Of a stretch of 38,796 nt of DNA, positions 7,030 through 36,295 are shown one piece after another (position 1 is the stretch's first letter; each line of letters opens with the position of its first letter). The notes below the pieces were generated by a model that saw only the letters and a program-made list of their open reading frames with translations, was not told the DNA's origin and did no database searches. Source of the DNA: Candidatus Roizmanbacteria bacterium CG02_land_8_20_14_3_00_36_15 (GTDB lineage: Bacteria; Patescibacteriota; Microgenomatia; UBA1406; GWC2-37-13); contig PEUF01000033.1 of the NCBI GenBank assembly GCA_002780795.1, positions 1-38,796 of the forward strand. The letters run 5' to 3'. The position numbers and the translations under genes are program-made.

Positions 7030-8053
7030 AGATATTTTTTTTGACCTTTCCGACGAAAAAACCTTTGACGAAAATTATACCATAGGTGAGATGGGTCAAA
7101 AAAAGAACGGGAAAGACAACTAAGGAAACAATTATTTTCTTAGTATTAACGAATGATTGTATGATTAGAAGAAAATTTAATATTGAATATATTAGTAAAG
7201 GAAAAGCAAGAATCAAGAAATAAGAGGTAAGAAAACCTATTCTAAATAATAAATAATAAATAATAAATAATAAAAAGAAAAAGAGGTAAAAAATAAATAA
7301 AGTAGGAATGAGGTAAGAGACTCTTCTGGAATTGCGGTCGCCGTGGGCGAAAAAAGCGCCTCGGTGAAAGCCATAGTTGGCGTGCTGTTTGAGATAAGCA
7401 ATTAAATTGTTCCTTCGATGATGATAAACGACCAGTTTCGGCGAATAAAGGATTTTTTCCTTTCTTTTATAGACCAAATCCTCACAGAGTTTACTGTCTT
7501 CGCCGGGCCAGTAATCACTGTTAAACCCCCCCAGTTTTTTAAAAACCTGTTTTTTGATAAAAAAGTTCATCGACGGATAATCATCAACAAATCTTTCTTT
7601 CATTGGAATAAAACGATAACAGTAATTACCGCTACCGATCCAGGAAACAAGAATTTGATCAAAAACCCGTTCCCAGAAATTAGCGGCCGCCGGGAGAATA
7701 CCCGGTCCACATAGTACTGAAAACCGTTTTGTTTTAAATAAATAAGTAGCATTTTTTAGCCAGTTTTTTTCAGGATAAGCATCGTCATCAATAAAAACGA
7801 TAATTTCTCCAGTTGCCTTCTCTACTCCAATGTCTCTTTTCTCTGCCGGCCGACTGATTTTACCGGTAGGAATAATTTTTAGCCAAGGATAACATGTTAG
7901 GAGAGTTGAGTAATCGAGCGGTAGATTGTTTGGTAAAACGATTACTTCAAAATTTCGCCATGTTTGTCTGTTTAAGGCAGGCAGGTTTTCTAGAAGAAGA
8001 AAATCATTGATTTGACGTGTTGGAATGATAATCGAAAATAAGGGTTTTTTCAT
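7022..8053 (-). CDS. GT2 family glycosyltransferase with C-terminal membrane helices
   Basis: A 343-residue GT-A enzyme. It has FSIIIPTRQ at the start, RDIGVEKATGEIIVFIDDDAYP carrying the DDD metal site, and a GEDSKLCEDL acceptor motif with YHHRR after it. Residues about 245-330 contain two to three membrane helices. The first of these is encoded by four exact 7-base units (7244-7271), so one helix is partly made from a tandem repeat. The ATG overlaps the DPM1-like gene upstream by 4 bases, and the 3' end overlaps the radical SAM gene by 8, so the three genes form one operon. Donor and acceptor are unknown. Confidence 0.8.
   Translation of the reverse strand: MKKPLFSIIIPTRQINDFLLLENLPALNRQTWRNFEVIVLPNNLPLDYSTLLTCYPWLKIIPTGKISRPAEKRDIGVEKATGEIIVFIDDDAYPEKNWLKNATYLFKTKRFSVLCGPGILPAAANFWERVFDQILVSWIGSGNYCYRFIPMKERFVDDYPSMNFFIKKQVFKKLGGFNSDYWPGEDSKLCEDLVYKRKEKILYSPKLVVYHHRRNNLIAYLKQHANYGFHRGAFFAHGDRNSRRVSYLIPTLFIFYLFFFLLFIIYYLLFRIGFLTSYFLILAFPLLIYSILNFLLIIQSFVNTKKIIVSLVVFPVLFLTHLTYGIIFVKGFFVGKVKKNIYE
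7244..7271. repeat. Four exact 7-base tandem units in a GT2 gene
   Basis: The plus strand reads AAATAAT four times in a row with no mismatch. The gene reads the opposite strand and gets FIIYYLLF, part of a membrane helix. A change of one unit would shift the frame. Confidence 0.85.
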
Positions 8054-11586: not shown

Positions 11587-11603
11587 CAGGAATTTATAAA
11601 GAG

Positions 11604-11648
11604 TTCATAAAGTTTATAAAGTCCGTAAAGTCCATAAAGTCTGTAAAT
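11604..11648. repeat. 9-base tandem repeat array between divergent promoters
   Basis: Five contiguous 9-base units of the form TYYRTAAAG (TTCATAAAG, TTTATAAAG, TCCGTAAAG, TCCATAAAG, TCTGTAAAT). The array lies between the promoters of the flippase gene and the GT2 at 11692. A related array lies at 33365-33447. Confidence 0.8.
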
Positions 11649-11678
11649 TTTTTTAGAATTTATTAAGTTCTTGGATGA

Positions 11679-15779: not shown

Positions 15780-17672
15780 ATGGTTAATACAAATAATATC
15801 CGTAATTTTGCCATTATTGCCCATGTGGACCATGGAAAGAGTACTTTAGCCGACCGTTTTTTGGAACTGACTGGAGTCATAAAAAAAGGACAACACGAGG
15901 ATCAGTTTTTGGATAGAAATCCAATTTCGCGGGAAAGAGGAATTACGATTAAACTAGCACCGGTGAGAATGAAATACAAAATAACCAATAACCAAAATCC
16001 AATAATCAAACAAATTCAAAATTCCAATGATCAAAATTTAAAACAGTTTGGAGCTTGGAATTTGGAGCTTGGAGCTTCAAATTTAGAATATATTCTGAAT
16101 TTGATTGATACTCCTGGTCATGTGGATTTTTCTTATGAAGTTGATCGAACCTTGTCTTGTGTGGAAGGAGTGATTCTTTTGGTTGATGCGACGCAGGGGG
16201 TCCAGGCGCAGACAATCGCTAATGCTTATAAGGCGATTGAGAAAAATTTAATTATTATTCCGGCGATTAACAAAATTGATCGGGCTAATGCCGATATTGA
16301 ATCAACAGAGAAGCAGATAAGGGAATTTTTAGACGTTAGGGAAGACGAAATATTTTTGGTGTCGGCAAAAACGGGAGAAGGCGTTGAAAAATTATTAAAG
16401 GCGGTGATTAATAAAATTCCATCGCCCGAAGAAAGCTCGATACCGAAATTTTTTCGCTCCATGGGCGTGCTCCCGCGTCAAACGCGGTTGCTCACCTCCC
16501 AAGTCGCAAAAAACTCGGTATCTTCGCTCATCTTTGATTCTTACTATGATACTCACCGGGGGGTGATTACCTTTACCCGAGTTTTTAACGGTCAGTTAAA
16601 AGCAGGTGATAAAGTAAAGCTGTTTCAAGCTAATCAAGAATTTGAAGTGCAGGAAGTCGGTTATTTCAACCCTAATTTAATAAAAAAAGACAGTCTTTCA
16701 ACCGGCGAGATTGGTTATGTTGTAACTAATTTAAAAGATATTCATCAGGTCCGTGTTGGTGATACCCTTACCGAAGAAAATAGTACCAATCCTCCCCTAG
16801 CCGGTTATAAACAGGTTCGACCGATGGTTTTTGCCTCAATCTTCCCGACCGACACTCATGACTTTCTCAATTTAAAAAAATCATTGGAAAGACTTTATCT
16901 TAACGACTCTTCTCTTATTTTTACTTCTGTTCATAGTCAAGCATTGGGAGCTGGTTTTCGGGTTGGTTTTTTAGGACTGTTGCACGCCGACATTGTCCGT
17001 GAACGACTTGAGCGAGAGTTTAATCTTAATTTAGTCCTTACCCCGCCTCAGGTTGAGTTTAAATTAGAGAAGAATCATTTTTATGAACCATATGTCAAAT
17101 TATTAATTATTACACCGCAAAGATATCTAGGCAATGTGATGAAACTGGTCGAAGATTATCGAAGAGAGTTTGTCACCATGGATAATAAAACCCAAATCTC
17201 AATCACCTATACGATGCCGATGAGCGAGATGGTGTCGGATTTTTATGATAAGTTAAAAAGTGTTAGCTCGGGCTACGCATCGCTCGATTGGGAGTTCATT
17301 GAGTATCGACAGGTTGAAGCGAATAAAATGACAATTTTACTTAATAGTCAGCCGGTCGATGAGTTCTCTGAAATAGTTGTTAAAGAAAGAGCAATCGAGA
17401 AAAGTCAGCAGTTAACAAAAAGGTTAAGAATAATCGTCCCCCGCCAACAGTATGAAGTAAAAATTCAGGCGCAATATAAGGGCAAGATTATTGCTTCAGA
17501 AAGAATTGCTCCTTTTAGAAAGGATGTCACCAGAAAACTCTACGGCGGTGATAGGACAAGGAAAGATAAGTTACTGGATAAGCAAAAAGAAGGAAAAAAG
17601 AAGATGAAAATGGTTGGTCGGGTGGAAATACCAAAAGAGGCGTTTATGAAGTTATTTAAAATTAGGAGTTAA
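15780..17672 (+). CDS. lepA: Elongation factor 4 (LepA) with two repeat-derived inserts
   Basis: A 630-residue ribosome-associated GTPase that back-translocates or remodels stalled ribosomes. G1 is AHVDHGKST (14-22), then RERGITIK, G3 DTPGH, G4 NKID and G5 SAK. The LepA-specific C-terminal region ends in KLYGGDRTRKDKLLDKQKEGKKKMK. Compared with E. coli LepA there are two extra pieces. One is about 30 residues after RMKYK (about 70-101), encoded by fourteen 7-base units. The other is about 23 residues between IPSPE and LIFDSYYD (about 221-248), encoded by element A. The domain before PQRYLGNV is about 20 residues shorter than in E. coli. Both inserts lie on expected surface loops, so the enzyme is probably active. 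Confidence 0.95.
   Translation: MVNTNNIRNFAIIAHVDHGKSTLADRFLELTGVIKKGQHEDQFLDRNPISRERGITIKLAPVRMKYKITNNQNPIIKQIQNSNDQNLKQFGAWNLELGASNLEYILNLIDTPGHVDFSYEVDRTLSCVEGVILLVDATQGVQAQTIANAYKAIEKNLIIIPAINKIDRANADIESTEKQIREFLDVREDEIFLVSAKTGEGVEKLLKAVINKIPSPEESSIPKFFRSMGVLPRQTRLLTSQVAKNSVSSLIFDSYYDTHRGVITFTRVFNGQLKAGDKVKLFQANQEFEVQEVGYFNPNLIKKDSLSTGEIGYVVTNLKDIHQVRVGDTLTEENSTNPPLAGYKQVRPMVFASIFPTDTHDFLNLKKSLERLYLNDSSLIFTSVHSQALGAGFRVGFLGLLHADIVRERLEREFNLNLVLTPPQVEFKLEKNHFYEPYVKLLIITPQRYLGNVMKLVEDYRREFVTMDNKTQISITYTMPMSEMVSDFYDKLKSVSSGYASLDWEFIEYRQVEANKMTILLNSQPVDEFSEIVVKERAIEKSQQLTKRLRIIVPRQQYEVKIQAQYKGKIIASERIAPFRKDVTRKLYGGDRTRKDKLLDKQKEGKKKMKMVGRVEIPKEAFMKLFKIRS
15985..16082. repeat. Fourteen in-phase 7-base units inside lepA
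   Basis: The stretch divides exactly into fourteen 7-mers. The left arm is of CCAAnnn type (CCAATAA, CCAAAAT, CCAATAA). The right arm is of TTGGnnn type (TTGGAGC, TTGGAAT, TTGGAGC, TTGGAGC at 16048-16075). The arms are roughly complementary, so the whole could fold as an imperfect hairpin. It is in frame. Confidence 0.85.
16439..16522. repeat. Element A copy 1 inside lepA
   Basis: 84 bases, in frame. The ends are inverted (GATACCGA at 16439 and TCGGTATC at 16515-16522). The core has GGGCGTGCTCCC, a stem CCGCG-TCAAA-CGCGG, then CACCTCCCAAGTCG. The second copy is in miaA at 18005-18089. Confidence 0.85.
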
Positions 17673-17697: not shown

Positions 17698-18678
17698 TTA
17701 AATTTCTTTCCATTGTATATTTTTATCTTTTTTCATGAAAGTTAACTGGCGTTTGGCGTATTGAACCTCGGCAGTGATCCATTGCTTAATCGCTTCTTCT
17801 TTATTAACTTTTCCTTCCAAATAACTGATTATTTGTTGGTAACCGATAGTTTTTAATCCTGGATCGGTTTTTTTGTAGCCCTTTTTTAAGAGGGATTTGA
17901 CCTCCTCTATGGCCCCCTGTTTGAGGCGTTTTTCTACTCTGGTTTTGATTGCTTGGCGAAGTTTATTTTTGTCTTTATATTTAAGACCGATTAAAAGGAA
18001 GCTTGATACCGTGTTTTTCACTCCACTGGGCGTGCTCCCCCGACTAAAGTCGGGTTGCGCACCTCCCAAGTCGTTCAAAACAGGTATTCTCGCTTCCTTT
18101 CTGAAACATTTGGAAATTTCTATCTTTCTTATCAGTCTTCTCGGATTATTTTTATCACTATTGTTTAATTGATTAAACGATTGAACATTAATTCCTTTGA
18201 GAATCTTTTGTAATTCTTTGACGGATTTATTGTCTAATTTTTCGCGGAGTTTGAAATTAGGAGGAACTTCATAATCAAAACCATAAAGGAGATGCTTTAA
18301 ATAGAAATAACTTCCTCCAACGATGATTGGGGTAATTTTCTGTTTTAAAAGTTTTTTAATAAGATAAAGAGTGCATTGTGTCCAATCGTATGAAGAAAAG
18401 CGTTGTTTGGGATCGACAATGTCATATAACCAGATTTTAGATTTTAGATAATAGATCTTAGATGATAGAGGATAATAACCAATATCAAAATTTAGCTTTG
18501 AACTTTGAGATTTGAACTTTGAGTTTTTCTTTATATCTTTTCCGGTAATAATATCTAATTTTTTATAAACCTGTCTAGAATCGCAGTTGATTATTTCCCC
18601 ATTATATTTTTTGGCCATTTGGATAGCCAATTTTGTTTTTCCAGTGGCAGTTTGGCCAGTGATTATGATAAAATTCAT
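17698..18678 (-). CDS. miaA: tRNA dimethylallyltransferase (MiaA) with two repeat-derived inserts
   Basis: A 326-residue enzyme that adds the isopentenyl group to A37 of tRNAs reading UNN codons. The P-loop is GQTATGKT (8-15), DSRQVYKKLDIITGKD follows, and TIGYQQIISYLEG is the C-terminal MiaA signature. Residues about 47-82 (KFKSQSSKLNF and after) come from a 7-base-period repeat, and about 194-226 (DLGGAQPDFSRGSTPSG) from element A read on the opposite strand to its lepA copy. Both replace or extend loops. It lies 25 bases from the convergent lepA stop and 35 bases from folD. Confidence 0.92.
   Translation of the reverse strand: MNFIIITGQTATGKTKLAIQMAKKYNGEIINCDSRQVYKKLDIITGKDIKKNSKFKSQSSKLNFDIGYYPLSSKIYYLKSKIWLYDIVDPKQRFSSYDWTQCTLYLIKKLLKQKITPIIVGGSYFYLKHLLYGFDYEVPPNFKLREKLDNKSVKELQKILKGINVQSFNQLNNSDKNNPRRLIRKIEISKCFRKEARIPVLNDLGGAQPDFSRGSTPSGVKNTVSSFLLIGLKYKDKNKLRQAIKTRVEKRLKQGAIEEVKSLLKKGYKKTDPGLKTIGYQQIISYLEGKVNKEEAIKQWITAEVQYAKRQLTFMKKDKNIQWKEI
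18005..18089. repeat. Element A copy 2 inside miaA
   Basis: GATACC at 18005 and GGTAT at 18083-18087 are inverted ends. Outside them GGAAGC (17998-18003) and GCTTCC (18092-18097) extend the pairing. The core shares GGGCGTGCTCCC and CACCTCCCAAGTCG with the lepA copy, but the stem between them is CCCGAC-TAAA-GTCGGG instead of CCGCG-TCAAA-CGCGG, a compensated change. Confidence 0.85.
18432..18525. repeat. 7-base-period element inside miaA
   Basis: On the coding strand, CTCAAAG, TTCAAAT, CTCAAAG and TTCAAAG follow one another. After a middle part come ATCTAAG, ATCTATT, ATCTAAA and ATCTAAA. Two arms of 7-mers in frame. Confidence 0.75.
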
Positions 18679-33355: not shown

Positions 33356-33364
33356 ATAATATAG

Positions 33365-33447
33365 TTTATAAAGTTGGTAAAGTTTTTAAAGTCCTTAAAG
33401 TATTTCTCCTTACGAACTTTACAACTTTACGGACTTGATGAACTTTT
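33365..33447. repeat. 9-base repeat arms in inverted orientation between ssb and rpsR
   Basis: The left arm is TTTATAAAG, TTGGTAAAG, TTTTTAAAG, TCCTTAAAG. After about 16 bases the right arm has the same kind of units on the other strand (TCCGTAAAG, TTGTAAAG). The whole could form a long imperfect hairpin and shares its unit with 11604-11648. Confidence 0.8.
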
Positions 33448-34252: not shown

Positions 34253-34311
34253 GAGCTAATAATTATTAGTGATTAGTTAGTGGTTACTGGTAAATTCTTA
34301 ACTTTTGAAAG

Positions 34312-34317
34312 TATAAT
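34312..34317 (+). promoter_or_regulatory. TATAAT box, leaderless start of the GT39-like gene
   Basis: TATAAT ends 7 bases before the ATG at 34325. It lies downstream of the alternative GTG at 34280, so the longer form is unlikely. Confidence 0.6.
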
Positions 34318-34324
34318 ATTTGAT

Positions 34325-36295
34325 ATGGCGAAAATCAATAGCAATAGTAGTAATTTTAAATTTAAAATTTTAAATTTAAAATTCCCGATATTTATATTTT
34401 TCTTTTTTCTTCTTACTTACACGCGCTTTATAAATATCGGTTGGGGATTACCCTATCCGATGCATCCGGATGAACGGAATATAGCGGTCGCAGTTCAAAA
34501 CTTGAACTGCGAAGTTCAAAGTTCAAAGTTCAAAGTTCAAAGTTGTTTTAATCCTCATTTTTATGCTTATGGACAGTTTCCTTTGTATTTAGGACATGGA
34601 CTTGTTTGGTTGTTGAAATTTTTTAATGGAAGGTTAGGAACACCGATTAGTTTTCTGGAAGCAACGATTAGTTTGAGGACAATTTCGGCAATAGCATCGG
34701 TCATAAACGCATTGATGTTGATTAAAATTATTCAACTAATCTCCAATCAAGGTCAAAATTTAAATTCTAAAAGAAAATTGATTTCTAATCACACATTATT
34801 AATTACGTCCCTAATCCTTATTTTTTCTCCTTATTTCATTCAGTTTTCCCATTTTGGCACAACAGAATCACTTTTAATGTTGTTTTATAGTTTAATAATA
34901 TATTTATGTTTGCTTTTTTTTCAAAAAATACTAAATACTAAATACTTTATACTTTATACATCTTTCATCAGCGGTTTGGCGATAGCGACGAAAGTGTCAT
35001 CAGCAGTTTTCATAGGAATACCTCTAATAGCAATAATAAATTCAAAATTCTCGCCCAAGGGGCGATCGTCCTTTGGACGAAAATCTCAAAACTCAAATCG
35101 ACATCTTAAAGCTCAAAACCATTTTACTTCTAATTTTTTACTTGTATTTTTGACTTTTACCTTTTTACTTTCGACTTTTATTTTTACAATCCTCTTTTCT
35201 CCTCATAATCTTATTAATTGGCAGGAGTTTATTGGCGCCTTAAGATATGAATCAGAAGTAGCCACCGGGGCGATAAAAGTTTTTTATACACGACAGTTTG
35301 AAGGAACAGTCCCCTATTGGTTTCAGTTGACTAAAATTTTTCCTTATGCGTTGGGATGGCCGGTTTTCGTCTTAGGAATATTAGCTTTTTCAGGATTAAG
35401 TTGGAGAAGCCGAGAAATCAATCTATTAAGATTGGCTTTTTTATTCTACTTTATTCCTAATGGTTTGCTCTATGCTAAATGGACAAGATTTATGGCACCA
35501 ATTTTTCCTTTAATATTAATATTTTCTATATTTTTTTTATTAAAATTGTATGATTGGTTTTATAATTATATTCGGATAAGTTCAAAATTCAAAATTCAAA
35601 ATTCAAAATTACAAGTCAAAATTAAAAATTTTAAAACTTTTGACTTTTTACCTGTATTTTTGACTTTTACCTTTTTACTTTTAACTTTTATCAGTATTTT
35701 ACCTGGTATTTCTTATCTTTCTGTTTATCAAAAACTTGATGTTCGTTTTCAGGCATCGAAATGGATTTATGAGAATATTCCCGATGGAAGCTATATTTTA
35801 TCTGAGACCGCAAATGTTGTTGATATTCCAACAGCAAATCCAAAATCCAAAATGCAAAATCCAAATCAAGTTCAAAATTCAAATTACAAAATAATTTCGT
35901 TTAATTTTTATGATTTGGATGAAAACCCGCAACTACAAGAAGAATTAAAAGAGCATTTAGCGAAAGTTGACTATATTTTTGTACCGTCAAGAAGAATTTT
36001 CGCAAATCACTACTGTGGTTCCTTGTCATCCCGACCGACCCCGACATTACGTCAGGGGAGTGGGGGGATCTTTGGTAACAAATGCCAAATGTTAAAAAAA
36101 GAATATCCTTTACTTAATGATTATTACGAGAAATTATTTTCAGGAAAGCTAGGATTTGAAAAAGTAGCGGAATTTTCCAGCGGTCTTAATGATGAGCAGG
36201 CGGAGGAAACGTGGAGCGTGTTTGACCACCTTATTATAAGAATATTCAAACGTAATTCAACAAATCCAAAATCCAAACAAACTTCAAATTTCTAA
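34325..36295 (+). CDS. GT39/PMT-like GT-C glycosyltransferase rich in repeat inserts
   Basis: 656 residues. The first membrane helix is followed by LPYPMHPDERNIAVAV, the acidic first-loop motif of ArnT/PMT-type enzymes. About ten further helices and a C-terminal extracytoplasmic region follow. It probably moves a sugar from a polyprenyl phosphate to a protein or glycan. Repeat-derived segments include 34352-34383, 34512-34544, element B at 35049-35099, 35581-35690, 35836-35890, a GC hairpin at 36016-36081 and the stop region. Removing the last hairpin joins IFANHY with CQMLKKEYP cleanly, and removing the second joins QNLNC with FNPHFYAYG. Confidence 0.78.
   Translation: MAKINSNSSNFKFKILNLKFPIFIFFFFLLTYTRFINIGWGLPYPMHPDERNIAVAVQNLNCEVQSSKFKVQSCFNPHFYAYGQFPLYLGHGLVWLLKFFNGRLGTPISFLEATISLRTISAIASVINALMLIKIIQLISNQGQNLNSKRKLISNHTLLITSLILIFSPYFIQFSHFGTTESLLMLFYSLIIYLCLLFFQKILNTKYFILYTSFISGLAIATKVSSAVFIGIPLIAIINSKFSPKGRSSFGRKSQNSNRHLKAQNHFTSNFLLVFLTFTFLLSTFIFTILFSPHNLINWQEFIGALRYESEVATGAIKVFYTRQFEGTVPYWFQLTKIFPYALGWPVFVLGILAFSGLSWRSREINLLRLAFLFYFIPNGLLYAKWTRFMAPIFPLILIFSIFFLLKLYDWFYNYIRISSKFKIQNSKLQVKIKNFKTFDFLPVFLTFTFLLLTFISILPGISYLSVYQKLDVRFQASKWIYENIPDGSYILSETANVVDIPTANPKSKMQNPNQVQNSNYKIISFNFYDLDENPQLQEELKEHLAKVDYIFVPSRRIFANHYCGSLSSRPTPTLRQGSGGIFGNKCQMLKKEYPLLNDYYEKLFSGKLGFEKVAEFSSGLNDEQAEETWSVFDHLIIRIFKRNSTNPKSKQTSNF
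34352..34383. repeat. 7-base units at start of GT39-like gene
   Basis: AATTTTA, AATTTAA, AATTTTA, AATTTAA in exact phase. They encode FKFKILNLKF before the first helix. Confidence 0.75.
34490..34544. repeat. Hairpin plus four exact 7-base units in the first loop of the GT39-like gene
   Basis: GCAGTTCAA-AAC-TTGAACTGC (34490-34510) is a perfect stem. AAGTTCA follows four times (34512-34539). The repeat encodes VQSSKFKVQS, inserted next to the catalytic loop. Confidence 0.8.
34926..34960. repeat. 7-base units in the GT39-like gene
   Basis: AAATACT three times, then TTATACT and TTATACA, five units in exact phase. They encode ILNTKYFILYT between two membrane helices. Confidence 0.7.
35049..35099. 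repeat. Element B copy 2 (double hairpin, in frame)
   Basis: 48 of 51 bases match 12891-12941. It encodes SPKGRSSFGRK in the same frame as in the GT2 gene, and is followed by 7-base TCAAAAC-like units. Confidence 0.85.
35138..35180 (+). repeat. 43-base direct repeat, copy 1
   Basis: It matches 35648-35690 at 40 of 43 bases and encodes the helix segment VFLTFTFLLSTF. Confidence 0.8.
35581..35690 (+). repeat. 7-base array and 43-base direct repeat copy 2
   Basis: TTCAAAA four times in exact phase (35581-35608), giving FKIQNSK. AAGTCAAAA/TTTTGACTT then flank an AT-rich centre. The right arm (35648-35690) has TTTTGAC-like 7-base units and copies 35138-35180. Confidence 0.82.
35836..35890. repeat. 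7-base units in the GT39-like extracytoplasmic region
   Basis: AATCCAA, AATCCAA, AATGCAA, AATCCAA and then AATTCAA-like units encode NPKSKMQNPNQVQNSNYK. Confidence 0.7.
36016..36081. repeat. GC-rich hairpin insert (element C) in the GT39-like gene
   Basis: CCCCGAC (36039-36045) pairs with GTC-A-GGGG (36051-36058), with further C-rich and G-rich flanks. It encodes SRPTPTLRQGSGG. The GC content is far above that of the host gene. Confidence 0.7.

Follow-up and report, generated by a model that had tools for sequence, protein, structure and literature searches.

The miaA Gene, the Fold of Its Product and the Inserts at the Locus

The 38,796-nucleotide stretch of Candidatus Roizmanbacteria DNA analysed here in its entirety (the window) carries a miaA gene on the minus strand, at 17698..18678, which encodes a tRNA (adenosine(37)-N6)-dimethylallyltransferase of 326 amino acids. 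The product passed both tests applied for MiaA, with a profile match to TIGR00174 of 180 bits against a curated cut-off of 148.65, and a model that reproduced the solved MiaA fold. The protein matched MiaA structures of the PDB, and for the model, computed with AlphaFold2 on a 32-sequence alignment (pLDDT 89, pTM 0.85), the best VIA match was 3foz_A (Z 28.8, 280 aligned residues, rmsd 3.3).

Between the TGKD and WLYD motifs lies a variable loop of 34 residues (residues 49-82; 18433..18534, minus strand), predicted from the model to form a small beta sheet. Arm 1 of this loop (18496..18523, minus strand) is composed of the units CTCAAAG, TTCAAAT, CTCAAAG and TTCAAAG, codes for SKFKSQSSK and coincides with the predicted strand 56-61. 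It is followed by a FDIGYY strand (18472..18489, minus strand) that is common to heptad-free relatives and lies within the predicted strand 64-73, and then by arm 2 (18432..18463, minus strand), in which the units ATCTAAG, ATCTATT, ATCTAAA and ATCTAAA and a final ATCT code for SKIYYLKSKI across the predicted hairpin tip and strand 78-83. The blocks covering residues 51-70 have pLDDT values of 92-93, so that arm 1 is modelled as a confident beta strand and not as floppy filler; the tip block 71-80 has a mean pLDDT of 71.

The gene contains a second insert at residues ~190-231 (17986..18111, minus strand), which is predicted to be disordered (pLDDT <50 at residues 205-223) and is dispersed in the genome, where four further places match within these residues. 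Its inverted repeat, CCCGACT and AGTCGGG separated by AA, can be read directly at 18039-18054, and the MiaA genes of several relatives have hairpins near the same site. In lepA, an insert with tandem heptad repeats (residues 71-102; 15990..16085, plus strand) remains unmatched between two aligned stretches of the solved LepA 2ywe. An earlier proposal, made from the sequence alone, that miaA holds both element classes within one gene, as lepA does, agrees with these findings, since miaA combines heptads with an inverted-repeat insert and the heptad insert of lepA is absent from 2ywe. A second stretch of lepA, at residues 218-246 (~16431-16517, plus strand), is also unmatched to 2ywe.

Seven-Base Periodicity of the Two Arms

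The sequence-only reading had described CTCAAAG/TTCAAAT and ATCTAAG/ATCTAAA units that keep a 7-base step on the coding strand, and both families were found inside miaA. The tandem 7-nt units exceed chance by a wide margin in arm 2, with a lag-7 score of 17/21, and more weakly in arm 1, which scores 16/21 at lag 7 and 18/21 at lag 14. Across the window, 19 loci scored at least 16/21 at lag 7 and 10 scored at least 17/21, against 0.25 and 0.025 expected, respectively, from 200 dinucleotide-preserving shuffles. The contribution of the encoded peptide was assessed by fixing the protein and drawing codons from the gene's own usage in 5000 trials. The periodicity of arm 2 was regained in 2/5000 redraws and that of arm 1 in 194/5000, which makes arm 1 the weaker case. 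The periodicity is, thus, a DNA-level signal that is clear for arm 2 and weak for arm 1.

Length of the Loop

In solved MiaA proteins, the TGK region and LYD are separated by about 10-12 residues, compared with 34-35 here, which bears out the statement that other MiaA proteins are short at this position; among the Patescibacteria matches listed, the loop ranges from 4 to 76 residues. Arm lengths were compared in 40 loops possessing the GYY strand, including that of the gene described here. The commonest length of arm 1, before GYY, was 18 residues (14/40 loops, the present one among them); therefore, arm 1 is not an expansion and no net insertion is needed to account for it. After GYY, the commonest length of arm 2 was 7 residues (15/40), whereas the present arm has 13, a length also seen in L037 and L038, both of which bear heptads there. 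The suggestion that the arms expand the loop consequently holds for arm 2 and fails for arm 1. The evidence named beforehand as speaking against it, namely relatives that match this position in length yet have no repeats there, exists for arm 1 (L037, L050, L053, L055 and L068, all with 18 residues) and was not found for arm 2. The five nearest rows on the MiaA tree (L127, L064, L066, L140 and L044) have loops of only 4-18 residues, and this sequence comparison suggests that the hairpin may be dispensable.

Recurrence of Arrays in the Loop among MiaA Genes

A total of 122 distinct MiaA genes were gathered, and the loop was located in 115 of them; the seven left out include the broken gene of genome G309. 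Lag-7 arrays of at least 17/21 were detected inside the loop in 6/115 genes (L034, which is the gene described here, plus L036, L037, L038, L063 and L143) and outside it in 2/115. The loop makes up 11814 of the 103374 scanned positions, and the binomial chance of such an enrichment is 5e-5, or 3e-4 when the present gene is excluded. The repeated units differ among genes: YTCAAAK and ATCTAAR occur here, GTCAAAA in L036, AACCCAT in L037, CTCAAAR and ACTATAA in L038, AATACTA in L063, and CCAACGA in L143. The two arms carry different units both in the present gene and in L038. In L143, arm 1 holds an additional array of slightly lower score (15/21), whose periodicity was regained in 1/5000 codon redraws. 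For the array of L037 the count was 0/5000, and in most arms the redraws indicate identity at the DNA level.

Arrays of at least 16/21 were present in 10/115 rows; placed on the MiaA tree, they require nine changes, much as the 9.7 obtained with shuffled labels; the starred branches alone force at least four. Repeated, independent gains of the loop arrays are therefore the simplest reading. At 17/21, the other lags represented in the loop by more than a single gene were lag 8 (L127, L140 and L150) and lag 14 (L034, L080 and L135), with the remaining lags found in 0-1 genes each. L127, L140 and L150 are close relatives with short MiaA loops of 8-base periodicity. A model in which the arrays grew from 7-base repeats already present in array-free relatives was rejected as a general rule, given that such seeds appeared at 1/32 per anchor against a background of 0.019, without excess. 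Single seed-like cases were L045, with CAATCTAAAATCTGG, which contains the arm-2 unit of the present gene, and L157.

Heptads are not the only repeats hosted by this loop. In L158 (genome G005), arm 2 contains a dispersed palindrome of 60 bp, for which that genome gave 37 matches, some of them representing both strands of one copy. The loop hairpin of L072 closely resembles another in its own gene, at the second site of insertion. The loop of L049 has a core of ~22 bases common to few other places. In the miaA gene of G309 (L169, ~410-740), an array of AAAAGTC heptads and a palindromic-looking stretch lie in the loop; just past these repeats starts a deletion with a change of frame, which breaks the gene. 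A hairpin scan of the MiaA loops at a strict threshold found hairpins in two loops and, elsewhere, in six genes, with none of score at least 18 in the loop described here. Most of the loop peptides that resemble elements, namely those of L064, L065, L071, L083, L085, L108, L117 and L156, were called by eye only. The loop seems to tolerate almost any content that preserves the frame.

Heptad Load of the Genome and the Family

The 238.8 kb of the genome hold 44 lag-7 arrays, compared with 0-7 at the other lags from 4 to 15, except for 31 at the harmonic lag 14, so that period 7 is favoured over its neighbours genome-wide. Among sampled relatives of similar GC, 13 lag-7 arrays were counted in 100 kb of G025, two in G007, one in G073 and none in G222, so that densities extend from zero to about that of the present genome. 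According to simple ORF calling, 28 of the 44 arrays lie wholly in predicted coding sequences, against 40.3 expected at a coding fraction of 0.917, which indicates that genes are avoided yet not spared. Three-unit matches of the TTCAAA type number 35 in this genome, and those of (TCAAANN)3 number 62, whereas the reversed controls gave 0 in both cases.

Comparison of 72 family genomes showed a wide range of (TCAAANN)3 load, from none in 22 of them to as many as 97, with loads of 0 to 97 within the single genus g20. The median per Mb was 34.9 in the six family genomes with loop arrays and 7.9 in 58 others (one-sided p 0.017). Two genomes with loop arrays that are related at the order or class level had low sampled loads, namely 1 in the 40 kb sampled from G039 and 1 in the 39 kb from G048, which take in miaA itself.

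The 72 genomes were screened for four families of candidate trans-acting factors, namely PF00078 reverse transcriptase, DinB, MutS and the Y1 transposase. The reverse transcriptase was present in 11/72 genomes and was not found in the present one (~91% complete); a template-writing enzyme of the PF00078 family is, therefore, unlikely as the maker of the arrays. The absence of DinB tracked the heptad load (p 0.017), a link that weakened to p 0.08 given GC. For MutS, present in 9/72 genomes, the link with load had p 0.16 raw and 0.017 given GC, and G025 and G003 run counter to it. The Y1 transposase tracked the load (p 0.0004; partial rank r 0.38 given GC), and a (TCAAANN)3 load of zero was observed in 8/52 genomes with Y1-type transposase genes, compared with 14/20 without them. 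In these tests, the GC value of 64 genomes was a proxy derived from their miaA locus. Associations between load and genes are exploratory, because phylogeny was controlled by just three well-supported (starred) independent pairs, and the Y1 link may reflect confounding by phylogeny.

Origin and Maintenance of the Arrays

Taken together, we consider it likely that both arms simply belong to a genome-wide heptanucleotide load and survive in miaA owing to the tolerance of the TGKD-WLYD hairpin for change. Short arrays would be made across the genome by a process that acts on DNA in fixed steps of 7 bases, the maker being most simply polymerase slippage or misalignment. Selection would then clear arrays that break genes and keep those whose frame is free of stops and whose length is divisible by three. 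Such a filter on the reading frame could explain features of both arms. A TTCAAAG array is open in every frame and its cyclic reading is always FKVQSSK; a perfect ATCTAAA array would place an in-frame TAA every 21 bases, and the units of arm 2 in the TAA phase are ATCTATT and, at the W codon, ATCTGGT, possibly altered under this filter. The arrays of miaA would persist in the hairpin, a site tolerant of change that probably lies at the protein surface, where they would be neutral and tolerated without function. Several observations point against such a tolerated load: the commonest length, weak DNA signal and confidently predicted strand of arm 1, the lack of excess of seed repeats at the anchors, and the low loads of G039 and G048. 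In addition, slippage by itself leaves the unchanged length of arm 1 unexplained.

A rival account is selection at the protein level, in which strands rich in K, S and Q suit a hairpin that is useful in Patescibacteria and the DNA periodicity is a by-product of the peptide. In its favour, arm 1 has the commonest length, an F at position 7 as in relatives, and a confident predicted strand. This account is nevertheless improbable, as codon redraws seldom regained the periodicity of arm 2 or of the L037 array, the loops of near relatives have 4-18 residues, and period 7 is in excess genome-wide as well. Ready-made heptad arrays could instead have been moved into the loop in the manner of palindromic elements, an origin favoured by the dispersed palindrome in arm 2 of the G005 MiaA and by the many sites with TTCAAA-type units in the present genome (35 matches, 0 reversed). 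However, the units vary by lineage and differ between the two arms of one gene, and arm-1 arrays keep the position-7 aromatic residue of array-free relatives in four of five cases (L034, L036, L063 and L135, but not L038), which makes such movement unlikely.

Chance resemblance in an A-rich loop might be argued at least for arm 1, whose periodicity was equalled in 194 redraws and whose score of 16/21 is reached by 0.25 loci in a shuffled window. Nineteen loci at or above this score in the window, the 35 three-unit matches of its unit type in the genome against none reversed, and the position of arm 2 and the loops of relatives above chance render this reading improbable. We also give a small probability to a dedicated 7-base-step process, operating in certain lineages of Roizmanbacteria but not in their close relatives, that would write heptads into DNA, could rewrite sequence in place and would be recorded by tolerant protein loops. 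Its basis is the load of 0 to 97 across the family genomes, together with the relation of load to Y1-type transposases (tested by only three well-supported independent pairs), and the length of arm 1 suggests rewriting without length change. A contingency switch, in which one 7-base unit gained or lost shifts the frame and toggles MiaA off and on, is very improbable: the unit is not a multiple of three and the G309 lesion starts next to heptads and palindromic-looking sequence in the loop, but the arrays in the present miaA are short and imperfect and that lesion deletes coding sequence past the loop rather than one unit.

Relation to Known Repeats

Rickettsia palindromic elements are repetitive DNA tolerated in frame within housekeeping proteins and have a palindromic consensus. 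The two arms of the loop are non-palindromic and, thus, do not belong with them; a closer comparison is offered by the L158 element and by the second insert of miaA.

Heptanucleotide repeats are a known, little-studied class. In the available text of PMC4679880 and PMC4692102, they are described as the most abundant class of long simple sequence repeats in most genomes, and slippage was put forward for them in 2007 (Mrazek, via the Introduction of PMC4679880). The miaA arrays resemble these long repeats in their 7-nt tandem units. However, in-gene units of the latter, as far as these texts describe them, favour multiples of three, whereas a non-triplet unit is found here in frame in a conserved enzyme; the arrays of this study also recur at one loop across lineages. 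Among named types, the TAACTGA heptamers of Beggiatoaceae, Cyanobacteria and Bacteroidetes (PMC4679880, available text) are likewise direct repeats scattered in the genome with no evident transmission mechanism. They consist of one fixed heptamer, mainly intergenic and upstream of starts, with in-gene copies mostly at protein edges, while many units occur at an internal loop in MiaA, and the YTCAAAK and ATCTAAR units described here lie within a coding region. The GGGNATC and GGGGAYT heptads of Xanthomonas and Nostoc are also spread genome-wide, with variable unit number in these genera; in the text available from PMC4692102 they are quadruplex-forming and under-represented in coding regions. 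They are G-rich, in contrast to the A-rich miaA heptads, which have no G tracts. The amino-acid tandem repeats of Borgs, as presented in the available part of PMC9879509, share A-rich tandem units in reading frames and genome-specific formation. Their in-gene units are all divisible by three and mostly fall in disordered regions, unlike the 7-nt unit of miaA and the predicted strand of arm 1.

A literature search for in-gene heptads in Patescibacteria gave none among the matches listed. The present data extend the known picture by a housekeeping enzyme that bears a non-triplet unit in frame, by a loop reused time after time by unrelated repeats, and by a load that ranges within one family from none to many. 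Among the tandem repeats of bacteria, heptamers occur in excess, and the step of 7 has so far rested on a proposal (polymerase contact length) rather than on a test. A family of close, small genomes with loads from zero to ~100 therefore makes the cause mappable by comparison, and the MiaA loop offers a ready catalogue of the repetitive DNA that a housekeeping enzyme can absorb.

Other Arrays in the Window

A predicted membrane-protein ORF (34280-36295, plus strand) contains about six separate heptad arrays, at 34350-34385, 34503-34548, 34923-34969, 35575-35618, 35663-35692 and 35833-35867. At 7237-7283, an array that is T-rich on the coding strand codes for hydrophobic residues in the membrane part of a glycosyltransferase-like ORF. 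A 9-base tandem unit of the AGTCCATAA / TAAAGTCCG type is common to the intergenic stretches 11602-11651 and 33363-33446; directly downstream of ssb, at 33410-33446, the repeat goes on in nearly inverted form.
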